64,000 bases of DNA from positions 14,233,501-14,297,500 of the forward strand of contig NC_058501.1 in assembly GCF_020382885.2 (NCBI RefSeq). The letters are read 5' to 3'. The DNA comes from Scatophagus argus. Lineage: Eukaryota; Chordata; Actinopteri; Scatophagidae. Below the pieces are notes generated by a model. The model was not told where the DNA came from and did no database searches. It worked only from the letters and a program-made list of their open reading frames with translations. This document shows positions 17,301 to 36,034 of this stretch, one piece after another. The position numbers and the translations under genes are program-made. Numbering within the stretch: the stretch's first letter is position 1; every line of letters begins with the position of its first letter.

Positions 17301-20300
17301 GAATCCTCTTCAACACAAACAACCCCCCAAACATACAAACGGGTACCGCTGCAGTGCTCTATTTTCTTTGAAAACAGGTAGCTGTGAGAACATGAGTAGT
17401 GTGTTTGAACGTGTGTGTCTTCACCAGTGCATATGTAGGTAGGCCTACAGTATATATCCACACGCACATGCTTGTTAAGTGTGTGTGCTATTCCCCGGCC
17501 AGCAATTTGATTAGATCCACAGCAGGGCAGTGCCTCTGTCACATTTACATTCAGATGGAGATTTAGTCTGTTGGCCGTCCCCTGCTGTTCCTGGTGCAGT
17601 AATGTAGGGAGACATGGCTGGCTGCCTGGTCCACTTATACATACACCTGAGGGAGAACTGCTCAATCCTACTGACTCCACTACACGCCTGTCAAATTGCT
17701 CTCTCACACACTCTCTCCCTTTGTATGATTCTGTTTTCATTCCTTTTACAAGCAACCTAATCGTCTTATCACAGAGCTGTGAGTATGGTAATAACTTTCA
17801 GCATGTTGAGATCTAGAAATGGGATAACATACTGAGCAGCATATGTATATAGAGTATGCATGTGTCTTTAGATAGTCATACACTTCTAGGGGCTTCATCT
17901 CAAGCTGTGGAGATCAAGGGTAAATCTGTAGACAGACACTGTAGGTGCATGCAGTGCAATCATGTGCTACAGATTCCAGAACAGGGTTGGTGAGTTATCT
18001 AACAATATTCTTAGACTAATTATTAGCAGCTGAAAAAGAAAAGCTGTTCAGAATGCAGCATGAGGAAAATATTTCTATTTTTCTTGCTATTCTGAGGCAT
18101 TTTTTTTAAGAAACGATGCACTTGGCTTTTTAAATTACTGGCTAATAGACTATATAATCACAGATATAATGATGAAGCTGAGTAGAATTTATAAATGTGT
18201 TTCCAAGGTGAAATACCATTAAAAAAACTACAATGGGCTTATTCCAATAACAATTATTGTCTGTGCAGCCAGAGCCTGAGATAGCTTATTCTTCTTTAAC
18301 ATAGACCTCCCAACTATTAAAAGCACACTAGCGAGCCATGCTGTTGGACTGGGTCCTTCATTGTGATGAATATGGGCACTACTGCTTATTTTGAGCCAGT
18401 CCCACATACACCATTCAGCTGTTGTAATTACTCACTAATGCACTAAATCTGTGGCTGAAAATAATTCTGCACAGACTGTTTACTCTTGTATGAAAACGTT
18501 GGTGAATTACTACAGTGCCTACATAGTTTTTATGGACATTATTTATTTAAATTACATATTGGTGACTTGGGGCTGAGTGGGAAAGACAGTTTAAAGAAGT
18601 TGGAAAGCAATGAGAGCCCAAGATGGACTAGCTCTTTGTTGGTATTGGTCATGTGATGGTATTTGATCCTTTAAAATGAAACAAATCACGACTCTACTGC
18701 AGCCTGTTAAATAAAAACAAGTAAACCAAAAAAAAAAAAGCCAAAACATATATCTCCATGTTCCAGGTGTACCTGTGTGGGAACAGTGCAGAAGCAAAGC
18801 ATGCAGTCGCAGAAATAGCCACTAAGCTGGGCCTCACTGTTCTGGATAAAGGGACTCTGTCTGCAGCCAGAGAGTTGGAGGACTTCCCTCTAAGGCTGTT
18901 CCCAGAGTGGAGACTGCCGCTGTGCTTGGCCTTTGGCCTCATCGCCTTCTTCTTCTTCTATCTACTCATCAGAGATATCATCTACGCTTATGTTGAACAG
19001 GGCAAAAACACCTCCTACAGAATCATGATATCCCTAGCCAACAAGGTAAAGACCCCCGTGCCCAATTCTGGTTTAGAGTCCTGTAGATGGCATTTTGTGT
19101 TACACATTAAAGGATGTCCTCTATGTTTATCCCCCATCTTTCAGGTGTTTCCAATTGTGTCTCTGATCATGCTGGCTCTGTGTTACCTACCTGGTGTTAT
19201 AGCTGCCTTCCTTCAGCTCTACAGAGGGACCAAGTACAGGTCAGACTTCAAACTAGGATAAAATGTTCTCTACCTGTGCAATTAGTTGTAAAAGGTGTAT
19301 CATATTTGGAGCAGAAAATGCCTAGCTCACCCTTCAATGTTCCAGGCGTTTCCCTGATTGGCTGGACCGCTGGATGCTGTGCAGGAAGCAGATTGGTCTG
19401 CTTGGACTGGGCTTAGCTTTACTTCATGCCATCTATACAGTCATCATTCCTATTCGCTATGCTGCCAGACACAAATTCATCTCACGTGTGGTGGATGAGG
19501 TAGAGAAGGCTGGTGTAAACCTTGCAGTGTTTCTATAATCCTTTACATTAACTGTCATTATATAATCGTATAATTGGACATCATTGGATTAATTTTCTTA
19601 CAATGCTGTCGCTGTGTTTCTGTTTCTCTTAGATACAGAACAATAAAACCACCCCATTTTACTTTGACAATACACAAGCATGGGCCACAGACTCCTTCTA
19701 TGTGGTGGGAATCTTGGGCCTCTTTCTTTATGTCGTACTAGGACTAACATCTCTGCCCTCTGTGGGAGGCACTCTCAGCTGGAGAGAGTTCAACTTTATT
19801 CAGGTCAGAATGCAATTGGAAATGCACAGTCCTTTTTAGTGTGTGTGTGTGTGTTCACCTTTAAGTCTGTAGAAGTTATCAGTCATGTCTTTACTATCAG
19901 TGAAAAACATATTTTAGGGCGTTTATGATAATCTATAGTTGGAGTGTCCAAGTTTTCATCAGAGTTATTAAAGTGTTGTAAAAGCAATATCAGTCACTGG
20001 CACTCATCTCCCCGGAGCCTAGTTAACTAACTGCCTGACAGAGGCACACAGAGTGAAAGCCTGGCTGAATTTAGCGGCATGGATTTTAAATGTTAAGTTA
20101 TTCATTAAATAGAATTATGGTACCTGGTATAATCCTCTGGGAGAAGGTTGTTAATACAGGTCACAGGTCCATTTGTGTAAAGGTCAGGTCCCTAAGCAGA
20201 CCCCAGATATCGAGGAGACTCAGAGATAGAGGTCTAGGTCAGGATAATCCTTATGATGTGTGAAAAGAATACAATAATATTGATTTACATACTTTTGCCA

Positions 20301-25739: not shown

Positions 25740-26200
25740 TTCATGACAGATCAGTTGGTTGTTTTCTATCAGCATTCTTCAGTGATCTGGAACTGCAGTG
25801 CCCTCCAGTTGAGCACATTCCCTGGAGTGAACTTTTGGTCATTCGCATGGTGCTGGATCTCACAGGGTGAAATATGTAGTCCCACATATCGACATCATAC
25901 AGCAGGCAAACAAAAGACTGATTCATTTTAAACCTTCCACTACAGGAATTCTGTTCCTGTAGAGATCGTAAAGAGTTTAGATTAAAAAAATAATAATAAT
26001 AATAAGAAAATCTCAAATGAAACTTACCTGATCCTTCAAAGAATTTCTTAATTAAAAAGTTTCCATCAAACCACAGCTGTACTAGACCAGATGCAGAGTC
26101 CCAACAGTGTGCAGTGTGCAGTTTTCTTGCACTCCAAATTCTCCCTTTTTGTTCCAAATATAAAGCTCAATACCATCTCGTGCAGCACACTCCAAAAAAC
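25740..26200 (-). pseudogene. Pentraxin pseudogene (CRP/SAP-like), exons 3-4
   Basis: Two exon remnants match the intact pentraxin at 34814-36034. Exon 3 remnant (ending 26028 with a GTAAG donor) encodes GIELYIWNKKGE, then CWDSASGLVQLWFDG, but these lie in different frames, so there is a frameshift just before the pentraxin signature. It also ends early, lacking the segment before ILGQ. Exon 4 (from 25956, after an AG acceptor) encodes MNQSFVCLLYDVDMWDY. A single-base loss after this changes frame ahead of SPCEI, and another loss near the end creates an early stop. The calcium-binding EQD is EQN here. A retained intron between the exons shows it arose by DNA duplication, not retroposition. 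Exons 1 and 2 were not found. Confidence 0.85.
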
Positions 26201-26800
26201 ATACCTGGGACAGACACTCACAGCGCTGACATCCTCTTCTGAAGTTGTCAGGCTCATATTAAGTATAAGTAAATTGGTTTTCACTGTACAATTACTTGTA
26301 GTAAGTTGAAATACCACATGGTTTGCTGTCAAGTCTGTGGATAAAACAACTGAATATATTGAGTGTTGAATATAATGCTTAGCATTTCAGTGACAAAGAT
26401 AACAAATGTACTCAATACACGTTGTTATACATTTGACTTGTTTTTTCACAGTTGCAGTTAATTTAGGAACTCTTAAGGTAACAAACCGCATACATGTACA
26501 CATAACTTTAATGTGAATTTTTAAATTATTTATTTATTTTAACCTTGCGTAGGTGCAGCACATGCACCATCACCAGGAGAAGCAAAAGACAAATAAAAAG
26601 GCACAGGAGAAAATATTCACTTTAAATGCTGCTGTTGTGTTGCTATTAACACGAACACACTAATAACTAGTACTAATAAGTACGTCAAATTAATTTACAG
26701 TTGAATTTTTCTAAAGAGTAGAAGAACCTACATGGCAGTAATTTTTTTGTTTGTTTATTTGTTTTTGTTGGTTTATTTGTTTGGTTTTTTTTTTTTTTCT

Positions 26801-27180
26801 TGTCCTTGTTGGGGTTTTTAAAAATTTGGTTGTTGTTGTTGTTGTTATTTTTTTTTTTATTTTTTTTTTTTTTAAGCTTGACATCTAGGCAACTTCCTGC
26901 TCTACTGGTCTCTGCCTCTCAGCAGAGGCCAGTCGAGGAGAAAGTGGCTTGGACATCTCAGCAATCTCCTGCTCTGGCCTCTGCTGAGTAACAGAGACCA
27001 GTTGAACCAACAAGCTTTTGGGGGTAATTTAGAGTCCCCATTGCTTTGTGGTTTGGAGAAGAGTGGGAAAAACCAGAGCACCTGGAGTAAACCCATATGA
27101 GAAAAATGTGATAAGGCTGGGGAAGAAGTCAGGACAATGTTAGAAATTTAAAATTTCATTAAAAGACATCACACCTATTT
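26801..27180. repeat. Tandem duplication unit 1 (hairpin-bearing 3' flank)
   Basis: This 380-bp unit is almost identical to the next unit (27181-27545); the length difference is mainly a longer T run. It ends with a copy of the last six codons and stop of the minus-strand gene at 27524-29362, so it duplicates that gene's 3' end. It contains a long inverted repeat: 26904-26932 pairs with 26974-27002, 26 of 29 positions complementary. The part at about 26990-27100 resembles, on the minus strand, the GGTTTCCTCCGGGTGCTCCGG region of the LINE tail seen at 8466-8792. Confidence 0.9.
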
Positions 27181-27545
27181 GTCCTTGTTGGGGTTTTTAA
27201 AAATTTGGTTGTCGTTGTTGTTATTTTTTTTTTTTTTTAAGCTTGACATCTAGGCAACTTCCTGCTCTACTGGTCTCTGCCACTCAACAGAGGCCAGTCG
27301 AGGAGAAAGTGGCTTGGACATCTCAGCAATCTCCTGCTCTGGCCTCTGCTGAGTAACAGAGACCAGTTGAACCAACAAGCTTTTGGGGGTAATTTAGAGT
27401 CCCCATTGCTTTGTGGTTTGGAGAAGAGTGGGAAAAACCAGAGCACCTGGAGTAAACCCATATGAGAAAAATGTGACAAGGCTGGGGAAGAAGTCAGGAC
27501 AATGTTAGAAATTTAAAATTTCATTAAAAGACATCACACCTATTT
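27181..27545. repeat. Tandem duplication unit 2 (3' end and 3' UTR of the 612-aa gene)
   Basis: Second copy, contiguous with the coding sequence at 27524. Its inverted repeat arms are 27269-27297 and 27339-27367, again 26 of 29 paired, although the arm sequence differs from unit 1 at two positions. Short shared sequence (TTGTCC) lies at the junctions. In the minus-strand transcript both hairpins would lie in the 3' UTR, since the nearest AATAAA-type signals (TTTATT on the plus strand, about 26755 and 26773) are beyond unit 1. Confidence 0.9.
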
Positions 27546-29362
27546 GTACGCCTGAAGGGCTTGGAGATGAGTTTGCCCAAAGAGGAGAAGAACCTGCTGA
27601 TAGCACAAGCTGTTTTTGGTGGTATCATCAAATGACGTTCGAGGGCGCAGGCAATATATTCTTCAATCTCTGTATCCTTTAAAATCATTGAAATCAGCAC
27701 GACATCTGCACTGCCCCAATGCTTACAGAGGTCCTTGAATATGGTCTTGTGGAGGTTCTTGAAAGTTGCCTGGGTGACGTATATGTCTGTACCATCCAAT
27801 TTAGCCCATGTCTTATCAAATAAATATGCAATGATGTCATCTTTGTCTACAGGTACTAGCTTTAGTTTGTGGAATACTTGCCAAACTATCTGCTCGATCA
27901 GTATCCTGACAAACACTTTCTTTTTTTCTGTCTGTAGTGTCGCATCCTCCTCGGCACTTGTCTTCTCACACTTCTCCTCTGCATCAGTTTCCCGTGTTAC
28001 AATGTCCATTAAATTATCCATCATCTTTTTACTGTGGCCACCAGCCTGAGTATTCAGCCACCAGCTCATTAGTACCATGAAAATCCATACTTTGCTCCGT
28101 ATATCAGCATACATTTTAGTATGTGACTCAGGAATAAACCTTCTCACCCGAACTAATTTCCTTGAATCTGGGATAGCATCGGGCATCCCCTCATCTGTGA
28201 GGTGACTGTAGAGGAGATCACTAAGTTCTTGTGTGAATATCAAGACTTTACCATCGGAAATGTCTTTGAACCACACCAGCGCAAAATCCTCACTTCCAGT
28301 CTTTGTTACTTCACAAATGCATCTCTGAAACAGAGCCTCCGCTGACTCCCTCCTTTCAACTTTGATGTCCTGGTGAAATTTGCTCTTCAGCTGTGCCAGC
28401 ATGCGATGTATCCACACTTTGGCAAAACACTTTGTGATGAAGTTTTTTACCTTGCTCTTCATTTCTTTCAAAGGCGGTTTGCTTTTCTTTTGGCATGTTG
28501 GACTTGGATCTGCAACGTCTGTCTTTTCTAAGTTCTTAGCCTTTTCAGTAAGTGCTTTAGCAATGCCATCTGAAACATTTTCAATCTCCAGAGAGGTTTC
28601 AGATTGCAGGTTCATAAACTCAAAGTCCGGCACGTCATCTAAAAGAGGATACATGATTTTGTTTAGATCCTCACGAATAATTTCCTGGACATTTGTACAT
28701 GTTGTTTTCAATTGCTTGTCCTCCGGTGAAATCTTCTCTGGGTTGTCTGGTTTCACTGTTCTGACTGGTGACTCCATTTCTTCATCAATGTGTGCCGACT
28801 CCAGATCTACCAGATGTAAATCCTTGTTCCTCCTTCTTCTTGGTTGAGTGGGGCAGAAAATTTTCATCTTGCCCGCAAATTCCTTCAGCATTTTGCAGGT
28901 CTGACTAACTATAGCATTAAGTCTGCGCGGGGGAGTGACACGGCGATTTATGAACAGCTCTTGAGTTTTTAAAGAAGGTGAGGCAGAGCTGACATTTTCT
29001 GAAATCTCTTTATCAAACAAGTTTGACAAGCTTTTGAAGCTGGCCAACTCGATTTGGTCCGCAACACCCAGAGCTTGACCAAAATTCTCGATGATTTTGT
29101 CACCAAGATTGTTCGGTATATGCTTAGACAAATTTATGTCTAAGCCCTTGAGAGATGTCAACAAGTTTCTTGAAACAGTTGTTACTATATTCAAAAGCAG
29201 TTCTGCCAACATGATTTTTGTGGCATCATCTGCAGCACCTGTTTTTAACAATACCCACTGTTCTTCTGTCATCCCTTTAAAAAAGGATTCAATCAGCTGA
29301 CGAACAGTAGCTTCACTTTCTCCCAACTTCCCCTCTGTCGTTGGTGTATCTGTTCTCTCCAT
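27524..29362 (-). CDS. Unrecognised intronless protein, 612 aa
   Basis: This is the longest open frame in the window and is uninterrupted over 613 codons. I do not recognise the family and assign no function. The ATG at 29362 sits in a near-ideal Kozak context (ACCACCATGG); the frame upstream contains only a GTG (29422). No signal peptide is apparent; one short hydrophobic patch (WIFMVLMSWWL, 426-436) is the only membrane-like stretch. The protein looks largely helical, with leucine/isoleucine-rich segments at about 15-115, 300-350 and 480-580, separated by a charged, probably disordered linker (about 172-300). Basic clusters are PRRRRNK (174-180) and KPFRR (601-605). Cysteines are scattered without a zinc-finger pattern. 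It lies between pentraxin loci, flanked by a TATA promoter and a duplicated 3' end. Being intronless it may be a retrogene or belong to an intronless fish family; intactness suggests selection. It is not a transposase, reverse transcriptase or capsid that I can identify. Confidence 0.75.
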   Translation of the reverse strand: MERTDTPTTEGKLGESEATVRQLIESFFKGMTEEQWVLLKTGAADDATKIMLAELLLNIVTTVSRNLLTSLKGLDINLSKHIPNNLGDKIIENFGQALGVADQIELASFKSLSNLFDKEISENVSSASPSLKTQELFINRRVTPPRRLNAIVSQTCKMLKEFAGKMKIFCPTQPRRRRNKDLHLVDLESAHIDEEMESPVRTVKPDNPEKISPEDKQLKTTCTNVQEIIREDLNKIMYPLLDDVPDFEFMNLQSETSLEIENVSDGIAKALTEKAKNLEKTDVADPSPTCQKKSKPPLKEMKSKVKNFITKCFAKVWIHRMLAQLKSKFHQDIKVERRESAEALFQRCICEVTKTGSEDFALVWFKDISDGKVLIFTQELSDLLYSHLTDEGMPDAIPDSRKLVRVRRFIPESHTKMYADIRSKVWIFMVLMSWWLNTQAGGHSKKMMDNLMDIVTRETDAEEKCEKTSAEEDATLQTEKKKVFVRILIEQIVWQVFHKLKLVPVDKDDIIAYLFDKTWAKLDGTDIYVTQATFKNLHKTIFKDLCKHWGSADVVLISMILKDTEIEEYIACALERHLMIPPKTACAISRFFSSLGKLISKPFRRTNRCDVF

Positions 29363-29460: not shown

Positions 29461-29580
29461 CTATTTATATACTCAGCCATCAAAGGCAATCTAGAATCTT
29501 ACATCACAGATCAAAGGACATTTCTCTAAGCTCCTCCCCTTCAAAGCCATTCAAAAATCTTAGGTCATCGATCAAAACAA
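29461..29580 (-). promoter_or_regulatory. TATA promoter with two direct repeats, 612-aa gene
   Basis: On the minus strand a TATATAAATAG box covers about 29461-29471, roughly 100 bp before the ATG at 29362, which predicts a transcription start near 29435. Upstream are two related segments of about 37 bp (29478-29518 and 29540-29580). Read on the minus strand they share the order GATC, then an AAGATT core, then CTTTGA. CTTTGAT/CTTTGATC resembles TCF/LEF binding sites. A GC-rich AGGGGAGGAGC stretch lies between them, near 29530. Factor identity is inference from the motifs. Confidence 0.55.
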
Positions 29581-30355
29581 AACAGCAACTGCAGCATAGC
29601 AACCGTTGTCATGTAAAATAGAAGCGTTTTTCTCATGACAGCCAGCCAACATTTACAATAATACAACAATAATTAACATAGAAAAGTTAATGGATCTGTC
29701 TTTCTAGATTTTTGTCTGATTATACATATCGCATTTCAAACAGAGGGAAAAAAAAGTGAAAGGTGTATCAGTTTTTAATAATATGTAATACTGTACCAAA
29801 ACAGAGAAATGTCAGTAAAGCCGATGGAGTTAGGATCAGAGCAACTGACGGACTTCCCTTTTTGGCTTTCTTCTGTTTTGACACCAACTGCCCAGTTCAT
29901 GTAAATGCAGTTTTAATCACACTGTGTTGAAAATGAATTCTCTGAATAAATTTATTCATGGATTAGAAGTTCATTCCAGTTTAATTATATGTTATTATAC
30001 TTTACAAATCCAGTCTGTTCAAGTGGATTTCAAATATTATCAGTATGAGATCAATACCAAGAGGGACATTTCAGTACTACTTTGTGTTATGTCACTGTAT
30101 GTTATTATATACAAATATAAATATATATTATTTCATCCATTATATGTATTTTGTCACTGCTTCAGATGGACATTTAGTACTACAGAAGTACAAGAATAAT
30201 GTTACTTCAAATAGAAATACTGTTGTAAAGTACAAGTACCTTGATTTCATACTTGTGAACCCTTTTCATACTATTACTTTGGAATTACTTGGATTTTTGC
30301 ATAAATTGGTCATAAAATATGTTCTGATCTTCATCTAAGTCACATCACATTGGAT

Positions 30356-31440
30356 TTAATAACTGGTTGACCCTCCTTTGGCAGCAATAACCTCAATAAA
30401 ACGTTTCCTGTAGTTGCAGATCAGGCCTGCACAACGCTCAGGAGGAATTTTGGACCATTCCTCTGTACAAAACTGTTTCAGTTCAGCAATATTCTTGGGA
30501 TGTCTGGTGCGAATTGCTCTCTCGAGGTCATGTCACAGCATCTCAATTGGGTTGAGGTCAGGACTCTGACTGGGCCACTCCAGAAGGCGTATTTTCTTCT
30601 GTTGAAGCCATTCTGTTGTTGATTTACTTCTGTGCTTTGGGTCGTTGTCCTGTTGCATCACCCATCCTCTGTTGAGCTTCAGTTGGCGGACAGACGATCT
30701 TAAGTTTTCCTGCAAAATGTCTTGATAAACTTGGGAATTCATTTTTCTGTCGATGACAGTAATCCATCCAGGCCTTGAGGCAGCAAAGCAGCCCCAAACC
30801 ATGATGGCCCCTCCACCATATTTCACAGTTGGGATGAGGTTTTGATGTTGGTGTGCTTTGCTTTTTTTCTCCACACATAGCGTTGTGTGTTCCTTCCAAA
30901 CAACTAAATTTTGGTTTCATCTGTCTACAGAATATTTTGCCAGTTGTGCTGTGGAACATCCAGGTGCTCTTTCGCAAACTTCAAACATGCAGCAATGTGT
31001 TTTTTGGACAGCAATGGCTGTGTCCTCCTATGAACTCCATTCTTGTTTAATGTTTTACTTGTTGTAGATTTTTCAACAATAATGTTAGCATGTCCATCCA
31101 TCCATCCATTTTCTATACCGCTTATCCGTCAGGGTCGCGGGGGAGCTGGAGCCTATCCCAGCTTAATGTTAGCATGTGCCAAAGATTTCTGTAAGTCTTT
31201 AGCTGACACTCTAGGATTCTTCTTCACCTCACTGAGCATTCTGCGCTTACGGGATGACCATACCTAGGGAGAGTAGCAACAGTGCTGAACTTTCTCCATT
31301 TGTAGACAATCTGTCTTACTGTGGACACATGGACATCAAGGCTTTTAGAGATACTTTTGTAACCCTTTCCAGCTTCATGCAAGTCAACAATTCTTGATCA
31401 TAGATCTTCTGAGAGCTCTATTGTGCGAGGCGTGGTTCAC
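30356..31440 (-). pseudogene. Tc1-like transposase pseudogene
   Basis: The N-terminal helix-turn-helix part ([15 protein letters not shown] type, near 31330-31390), the TDET motif near 30925, QDNDPKH (near 30640) and SPDLNPIE (near 30550) are all recognisable, giving the DDE catalytic triad in order. The frame ends with AAKGGSTSY and a stop at 30356-30358. Breaks are a stop just before TDET, a TGG-to-TGA change directly after NPIEML (30533), frameshifts upstream, and the 70-bp insertion. No function is expected. The family moves by cut-and-paste at TA sites. Confidence 0.88.
31080..31177 (-). mobile_element. 70-bp LINE-tail insertion with 14-bp target duplication
   Basis: The insert (31094-31163) is the extreme 3' tail of the teleost LINE-type repeat: read on the minus strand it runs from AGCTGGGATAGGCTCCAGC through GATAAGCGGTATAGAAAATGG to a few ATGG units. 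It is bordered by the exact 14-bp duplication TAATGTTAGCATGT (31080-31093 and 31164-31177). This shows a severely 5'-truncated retrotransposition into the older Tc1 element. Confidence 0.9.
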
Positions 31441-32061
31441 ATCAGGCAATGCCTCTTGAGAGGAGCAAACTCAAAACTGGTGTGTGTTTTTTATAGGGCA
31501 GGGCAGCTTTAACCAACACATCCAATCTCATCACATTGATTGGACTCCCGGTTGACTGACTCCTGGCTCCAATTTGCTCTTGGACAAGTCATTAGATAGG
31601 GGTTCACATACTTTTTCGACCCCGTGCTGTGAATGTTTACATGTTGTGTTCAACAAAAACATGAGAACTTATAATTTTTGTGCGGTATTAGTTTAAGCAG
31701 ACTGTGTTTGCCTAGTGATGTGACTTAGATGAAGACCAGAACATATTTTATGACCTATTTATGCAGAAATCCAAGTAATTCCAAAGGGTTCACATATAAT
31801 TCTTCTCTATAATTATATTCTTCTTTTACATTTACTTTTACACTGTGGGACTTTTTCAAAAGAAATTAACTTCTGTTAACGTGCAAGCTCTAGTCAAACA
31901 AGTTCACACAATACATTCTTCTCGTCTTTTTGCTTATTTGTTTGCTTTTTTTTCAGTTTTTAATTTGAGTCAGTGGTGACTTTCCTGGTCGCGACACATC
32001 GGTGGCGACAGTGATTAACAGAGGAGCTGCTGAAACTCTGCTGAAGCGGTCGATTAGAACA

Positions 32062-34813: not shown

Positions 34814-36034
34814 TTAGTGACAGGTCATCAGTGTGTCTTCTATCAGCACTCTGTCAGTGATCTGGAACTCCAGCGCCCTCCAGTTGAGCACATTCCCTGG
34901 GGTGAAGCTGAGATCATCCATGTAGTTATGGATTTCACAGGGTGAAAGGACGTAGTCCCACATGTAGACATCAGACATCATGCCAACAAAAGACTGCTTA
35001 AGGTCAAATCCCCCACCATGAGAATCTTGCTCCTGTAGAGAGTGTAGAATTTTAGCATACAGTAAATAAAAGCTAAATTGTCTAAATTATCTATGGAAAT
35101 CTTTAAACTAGAGACACACAGTAAGTCAAACATTAGCATACAGCAAAATCATGCTGTTTATTATTACAACTGTACCTGTCCTAATATAATTATGTTGGAA
35201 CCTCTGATGTTTGATCCTGTGCTGGAAAATTTCTTAATCAAAGGTTGTCCATCAAACCACATCTGTACCAGTCCAGTTGTAGAGTCCCATGTGGTACAAA
35301 TAGAGTGCCACATGTTCGGTTTGTAGTCCAGTCCTCGATATTCTAACTTTTTATCCCTGATATGGGGCTCCAACTCCTTATTTGTTTCGTCCCAGAAAAT
35401 CAGAAAGCTATTGGAATTAGAGGGTGTGGACATTGAGAAAAGGATGTGGTCCCTCTTGAGGTCTGTAAAGGACCTGTAGGCATTACAAGAATGTTAGCAT
35501 GCATGATACTTTTCATGGTCAGAGATACTTCGGATTATTCATTTTGCACATTCAGTTCTACCTGTGACAGACGGTTGCAGAGGTAAAATCTTGTCCTGAT
35601 GCATTCAGCGTCACACGAGCTGTGTTGGTCTCTTGAGGGAAGGTAAACATTTTACCTGACAGATCTGAAAAGAGAGATGAAGAAAAAATGTATCTATTCT
35701 TCCTCTTGTAAATTTTACATTAGAAACATTTTTGAAAATTAGACAAAAATATGCAAAAAAAAATTTCCATGTTTAAAAGTCTGTCACTAAAACAAACTGT
35801 TTTTATTTTATTAAACAGTTTTATCCTTATACATTGGGCAAAAAGATTTTACATATACAGAAAATGAATACTGGATTAAAGGAGTGTAAGAAAAGTAAAT
35901 TCATAGTTAAACGGCAACAGACTTGCATCTTTACATTTCCTTTCGGTGTTCTCTCTGTTAATCAGTTTATTTTTTTTACCTTGAGGACTTGCAGCACATA
36001 CTGTCAGCATCACCAACGCTAGCAAAAATTTCAT
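34814..36034 (-). CDS. Pentraxin, CRP/serum amyloid P-like (4 coding exons, 224 aa)
   Basis: Exons (minus): 36034-35980, 35664-35562, 35473-35176, 35032-34814, all with GT/AG borders and consistent phases. The product is a secreted short pentraxin, expected to form a ring oligomer that binds ligands in a calcium-dependent way as an innate-immune pattern receptor. A hydrophobic signal peptide (MKFLLALVMLTVCAAS) starts the protein. The pentraxin signature HxCxTWxS is His109 to Ser117, and Cys51 and Cys112 should form the conserved disulphide. Calcium ligands EQD (153-155), Asp162 and Gln165 are present, with Asp in place of the Glu found in human CRP. Length equals that of human CRP. A leader exon with a GTAAG donor probably ends at 36253, and the ATG falls directly after the acceptor. 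Two decayed copies flank it. CRP and SAP types cannot be separated from sequence alone. Confidence 0.93.

Follow-up and report, generated by a model that had tools for sequence, protein, structure and literature searches.

A 612-codon gene without introns in the fish Scatophagus argus is very probably one diverged copy in a large, fast-evolving family

Here we describe a gene of 612 codons that occupies positions 27524-29362, on the minus strand, of the window, by which we mean the whole stretch of 64,000 nucleotides of Scatophagus argus DNA that was analysed (C9:14233501-14297500). This open reading frame is very probably a working protein gene and a diverged member of a large, fast-evolving intronless family in the genome of this fish. 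The family is without a name in the resources that we searched, and its kind, expanded and of restricted distribution, is already familiar. An earlier note, made from the letters of the window, had treated the gene as a lone candidate for something undescribed; a search of the genome showed instead that it is one of dozens.

Results

The frame opens with an ATG at 29362 and closes with a stop ending at 27524, giving a single exon of 612 codons and one terminal stop, and its coding nature is indicated by the open translation, by comparison with shuffled sequence and by paralogues at 46% and 40% identity. The earlier note's claim of an intact, intronless 612-codon gene is borne out, with the only stop at the end and on a strand, the minus strand, that the note had left unstated; the plus strand over the same interval is closed by many stops. 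When the whole window was shuffled 60 times with dinucleotides preserved, the longest ATG-initiated frame reached 191 codons (mean 136), and the runner-up frames of the window itself, with ATG, GTG or TTG allowed as starts, have 170 and 167 codons. A 167-codon frame on the plus strand at 18758-19261 has no Pfam match at E<=0.01; we take it to resemble part of a STEAP metalloreductase.

The start context of the 612-codon gene is AACTACCACCATGG, and a TATA box, TATATAAATA, begins 109 nt 5' of the ATG, which agrees with the distance of about 100 bp given before. The basic cluster PRRRRNK, also pointed out in the earlier note, is found at residues 174-180, and the same alignment position is basic in relatives from the window's own clade. 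Signals of the AATAAA or ATTAAA type lie 665 nt or more past the last sense codon. A tandem duplication of roughly 365 nt, absent from the earlier note, joins 26800-27182 to 27179-27547 (95% alike, spacing 365, no strand assigned) and takes in the 3' flank of the gene together with its final 8 codons.

Pentraxin-like coding pieces flank the gene on both sides and on the same minus strand, at 25852-26127 and 34841-35478, so that its description as lying inside a pentraxin cluster is fair. The neighbouring frame at 25744-26157 matches PF00354 (Pentaxin domain) with an E of 2.8e-12; the 612-residue protein has no PF00354 match at E<=10 and is not a recognisable pentraxin. About 0.9 kb upstream of the gene, at 30277-31786, there is a decayed element with 72-nt inverted ends that are 96% alike and with transposase pieces broken by stops, presumably a DNA transposon of the Tc1-like kind.

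Relatives were sought in the 571-Mb, 48-contig genome of the same fish, and the copies are named here by contig. With the window protein as query, the search gave 43 rows at E<=0.001, its own locus included, after all 62 first-look candidates had been scored; the C2 copy gave at least 72 rows (62 of 125 candidates scored) and the C14 copy at least 54 (70 of 85 scored), counts in which one gene can give several rows. The C23 copy is 46% identical to the window protein over residues 8-600, with one stop near its end, and is closed at 594 codons; the C13 copy is 40% identical over residues 18-604, and the many remaining matches are weaker. This collinear homology over most of the protein, with copies that are themselves single exons, places the gene in an intronless multigene family. 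In a tree of 25 rows the window gene grouped with C23 (support 97/94) and with C13 (100/99), on branches of the window, C23 and C13 rows that the tree tool flagged as long.

By a hand tally over three tables, at least 25 places, the window included, carry a single frame that is at least 545 and at most 1,201 codons long and has no stop inside it. They sit on C2, C4, C6, C9, C11, C13, C14, C17 and C19, and the C23 copy makes a twenty-sixth; besides the window, therefore, there are at least 25 long intronless relatives on nine other contigs, 24 of them free of internal stops. The tally leaves out shorter open copies, such as one of 461 codons on C11 and one of 455 on C20. Every intact relative that was inspected is a single open frame, and the family as a whole is dispersed over ten contigs, partly as tandem arrays. 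Decayed relatives are also present, for instance at C4:10.59 Mb (7 stops) and C7:12.3 Mb. The C14 search revealed in addition a short form of about 190 codons that consists of the C-terminal domain only; it has 26 near-full-length places including the query, 25 of them without internal stops. Two frames, of 1,201 codons at C2:1504711-1508259 (L018/L019) and 1,059 codons at C6:12711655-12714795 (L037), look like in-frame tandem fusions of parts of family members. Seven matches at C10:24283811-24437024 cover only residues 3-54 or 3-75 of the C2 copy, and these may be a shared upstream repeat rather than members of the family.

The earlier statement that the protein belongs to no recognised family is upheld by the profile searches. 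The window protein had one match in Pfam-A, at an E of 0.21 and under the curated cut-off, and nine further members had none above it, so that none of ten members reaches a Pfam cut-off. Sequence searches of PHROGs and PDB with the window protein returned nothing beyond cut-off or chance. In IMG/VR, neither the window protein nor three subfamily alignments found a confirmed relative, the 127, 229 and 165 pattern matches of the alignments all failing tblastn, and in GTDB genomes none of the 230 pattern matches of one alignment was confirmed. The VIA-align and BFVD lists held scattered matches only, and absence of the family from those two is no evidence against it. At the thresholds applied, IMG/VR, PHROGs and BFVD gave no viral relative, a kind of match that the note had said would tell against the gene. 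All Rfam matches around the gene fell under their gathering scores. Among open-licence papers we found no description of this intronless family, which has no name to search by.

Substitution patterns suggest how firmly the gene is held. Compared with the C23 copy, dS is 0.63 and dN 0.40, giving a dN/dS of 0.64 (bootstrap CI 0.51-0.78), and compared with the C13 copy the ratio is 0.68 (CI 0.55-0.85) at a dS of 0.73; against the C17 copy the silent sites are saturated (pS 0.77). The earlier note had named a ratio near 1, combined with a lack of transcripts in every tissue, as a sign against the gene, and with these nearest paralogues the ratio lies below 1. The coding sequence is under weak purifying selection; we infer that the gene is kept, but loosely, because an unconstrained frame of 612 codons would not stay open over such a distance. 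A ratio of 0.6-0.7 is high, and several relatives have decayed, both points against the reading favoured below. Over the family as a whole, 22 paralogue pairs were tested and a ratio was obtained for 21, of which 17 lie in the range 0.5-1.11; the three below 0.5 (0.24, 0.36 and 0.42) all belong to near-identical copies. The most extreme of the 22 is the pair C14y/C14z, with a dN/dS of 2.58 (CI 1.43-6.27) from 73 replacement and 8 silent changes, an excess with a binomial P of 0.004, uncorrected for the 22 pairs. Two other C14 pairs are near 1 (1.05 and 1.11).

The long genes share an upstream block of GTTGCTA, GC box, CTTTGAT and TATA, with not all of these in every copy. Ahead of the window gene, and all on the minus strand, we find GTTGCTA at 29597-29603 (in 10 of 15 long-form upstreams, shuffle mean 0.5), a third and weaker site, CTTTGAA, at 29540-29546, a GC-rich box, GGGGAGGAGC, at 29530-29539 (GC-box pattern in 8 of 15), two CTTTGAT sites at 29510-29516 and 29479-29485 (motif in 14 of 15), and the TATA box at 29462-29471, roughly 100-110 nt from the ATG (TATA match in 10 of 15). 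The CTTTGAA site and the farther CTTTGAT were assigned from the comparison of upstreams. We take CTTTGAT to be a TCF/LEF-like site and GTTGCTA to be half of an X-box/RFX-like site. CTTTGAT, read on either strand, was counted 25 times in the 15 upstreams (14 of 300 nt and one of 66 nt), against a mean of 1.1 and a maximum of 5 in 300 shuffles, a comparison that overstates independence in that the 15 are related sequences. These sites remain between distant clades though the silent sites of the coding sequence are saturated. The TATA box is missing from 5 of the 15 and the GC box from 7, the 66-nt upstream being among the sequences counted.

An unguided k-mer count over 12 upstreams ranked CTTTGAT first, with all 12 containing it; TATAAA occurs in 10 of them and GTTGCTA in 8. 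These 12 were hand-chosen, one per clade, omitting C4, C2t, C14x, C14y and the first copy at C17:3.76 Mb as near-duplicates or too short; the two short-form upstreams in the set were picked after the CTTTGAW counts in short forms, so the fair long-form figures are 10 of 10 and 14 of 15. Among 11 short-form upstreams a CTTTGAW site occurs in 6 and TATAAA in 3. Strict ISRE and strict GAS sites were found in 0 of 12 upstreams and a kappaB site in 1 of 12. Absence of ISRE and GAS speaks against an ordinary interferon-induced gene and is no proof of embryonic use.

A second conserved motif lies behind the stop. This 30-nt element of the 3' flank is present twice on the minus strand, at 27428-27459, which is 67 nt past the last sense codon, and at 27063-27094, the latter a product of the tandem duplication. 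Of 18 family 3' flanks searched with a 32-nt query from the 3' flank of the window gene, 9 have a same-strand match of 23-32 of 32 positions at a distance of 67-414 nt from the last sense codon, the window's own match being trivial; a tenth family copy, C2:27.7 Mb, has the match where its truncated frame ends. The element was not seen in six 3' flanks shorter than 350 nt. Where at least 350 nt of 3' flank could be compared, which was so for 12 copies, 10 have it (9 of 11 without the window), and C17:3.76 Mb and the short C14 form do not; the C2 and C14 copies are near-identical, and the independent count is thus 9 of 11. For comparison, the best score in eighteen 5' flanks, some of them short, was 19 of 32 with both strands considered, and the best in 55 stretches of 1.2 kb taken at random from the window was 20 of 32. 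The surroundings of the element cannot be aligned between clades. We presume that it resembles the core of a common fish SINE, and the C11 copy seems to have a more complete SINE farther downstream.

AlphaFold2 gave a poor model for the window protein (mean pLDDT 55.7) and a mean pLDDT of 67.2 for a better-sampled relative. The proteins are predicted to be almost all-helical, with helical regions at the N- and C-terminus and low-confidence linkers between them. The C-terminus of the long form is a basic amphipathic stretch, most often FFxxLxKxxxKPF, whose best helical moment is 0.69-0.88 in all of 7 tails, chosen one per clade, against 0.61 for the 95th percentile of shuffled 30-mers; KPF or KPY with a cysteine further on occurs in 6 of the 7, the C2 tail being without it. 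In one short form the last 19 residues are hydrophobic (hydropathy 2.57), and similar tails occur in most sequences of an alignment of seven. The helical modules look alike by eye; we make no claim of internal repeats, as the best E among five essentially non-overlapping pairs was 0.0095 (profile comparison, 7 of 21 comparisons).

Discussion

The reading that we favour, and regard as rather probable, is that of a birth-and-death family of intronless genes whose helical proteins have membrane-binding tails and are used, perhaps, in the early embryo or germ line. The amphipathic and the hydrophobic tail would both dock the protein on membranes, a proposal drawn from tail composition to which we give an even chance. 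Because both tails could serve docking, the membrane-bound protein may act as a helical adaptor or effector, whose partners would change fast. A TATA promoter, TCF/LEF-like sites and the lack of introns would together serve fast transcription. By analogy, we tentatively suggest use in the early embryo or germ line, although the odds are against it. In the available part of PMC4654234, the genes that fast-cycling embryos transcribe first are short and often lack introns, and zebrafish genes of the early zygotic class tend to be young. Such genes of fish and flies are likewise intron-free and fast-evolving, with a TATA promoter suited to fast expression; they form a functional class rather than a homologous family. 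Against the favoured reading stand the patchy motifs, with CTTTGAW in only 6 and TATAAA in only 3 of 11 short-form upstreams, TATA and GC box lacking in a third or more of the long-form upstreams and the 3' element lacking in 2 of 12 testable copies, as well as the poor model of the window protein.

A further-reaching version, which we think unlikely, would make dozens of conflict-driven, membrane-docking proteins a co-regulated set. Both gene ends would be cis-regulatory and kept across silent-site saturation, with TCF/LEF-like sites and TATA in front and, behind the stop, the 30-nt element as an exaptation of a SINE core. The genes would come on jointly, either when the zygotic genome is activated or in the germ line.

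One described fish-only gene invites comparison with a role in the egg or embryo: the oogenesis-related gene org, of 221 residues, is abundant in ovary and early embryo (available part of PMC9369028). It has six exons and a reported 84.88% homology with other teleosts, whereas the present family is intronless and diverges fast. By description, not by sequence, org is a different gene from one with a single 612-codon frame.

The proteins could instead be host effectors of immunity or of defence against transposons, helical and membrane-bound proteins in an evolutionary contest with viruses or mobile elements, comparable to other defence families that have expanded in fish; we consider this possible and on balance doubtful. 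Birth-and-death arrays and the replacement excess of the C14y/C14z pair fit it, and there is a parallel in the gig1-like antiviral genes of fish, which in the available part of PMC12247413 are likewise fish-specific and present in several copies, with the coding sequence in one exon. In salmon these proteins have 222-240 residues, near the size of the present short form when compared by description. However, gig1-like genes are interferon-induced and have an extra small first exon, and strict ISRE sites are absent from all 12 upstreams here, as are strict GAS sites, with kappaB in a single one. The dN/dS of the window clade is moreover below 1 overall, and the two other C14 pairs are near 1. 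A subset of fish TRIM genes, expanded and positively selected in the available part of PMC2657112, is like the present family in its duplication and fast evolution and differs in being a named family, the ten proteins searched here falling below the Pfam cut-off.

The manner of copying bears on whether the frame is coding sequence left behind by a mobile element or endogenous virus that spread it, for example a captured transposon gene or a LINE-tailed unit. The copies on C2, C14 and C19 (L031 1883-5714, L032 970-5744 and L033) are 98-99% alike over 3.3-3.8 kb, non-coding flanks included, and have the same sharp upstream end on three chromosomes, just past a repeat with a microsatellite tail; the C14 copy has GTAC on both sides, beyond which lie fragments of a short element that has inverted ends. 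A piece within the shared 3.3-3.8 kb reads, as we take it, like a LINE. The sharp shared end may mark a mobile unit for this one subfamily, and the window copy has no close relative of that kind. The arrangement of adjacent copies on C11, C14, C17 and C19 is consistent with ordinary tandem duplication. An origin as such a relic is improbable in our judgement: absence of introns, dispersal, copy number, the common end and flanking GTAC, and the presumed SINE likeness of the 3' element favour it, but the inverted repeats beside the window gene belong to the separate decayed Tc1-like element (unit ends were examined for the C2, C14 and C19 copies), the viral resources named above hold no relative at the thresholds used, and copies with saturated silent sites have nevertheless kept their promoter sites and reading frame.

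The earlier suggestion of a retrogene whose spliced parent lies elsewhere is disfavoured and, in our estimate, very improbable: the lack of introns agrees with it, but the relatives inspected are also single frames, paralogues on different chromosomes have the promoter in common, including its conserved part upstream of the TATA box, and an exon-by-exon search of the genome recognised no spliced parent in 43 rows, in a search that did not check introns row by row and that short exons can escape. The copies were probably duplicated as DNA together with their promoters, because the shared block lies upstream of the TATA box and a retrocopy would lose it. On the favoured reading of a birth-and-death family, then, the genes would have spread by duplication at the DNA level, carrying the promoter along.

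The family is of interest mainly because it is large, evolves fast and has conserved regulatory motifs. Intronless, fast-evolving families without a recognised domain are easily missed by annotation, and some of them may serve the embryo, the gametes or defence. Since the short regulatory motifs at both ends of these genes are better kept than the protein, they offer a direct handle: reporter assays of the CTTTGAT/TATA block and of the 3' element are possible whatever the function of the protein. If the family is general in fish, it would explain a set of unnamed expanded genes.
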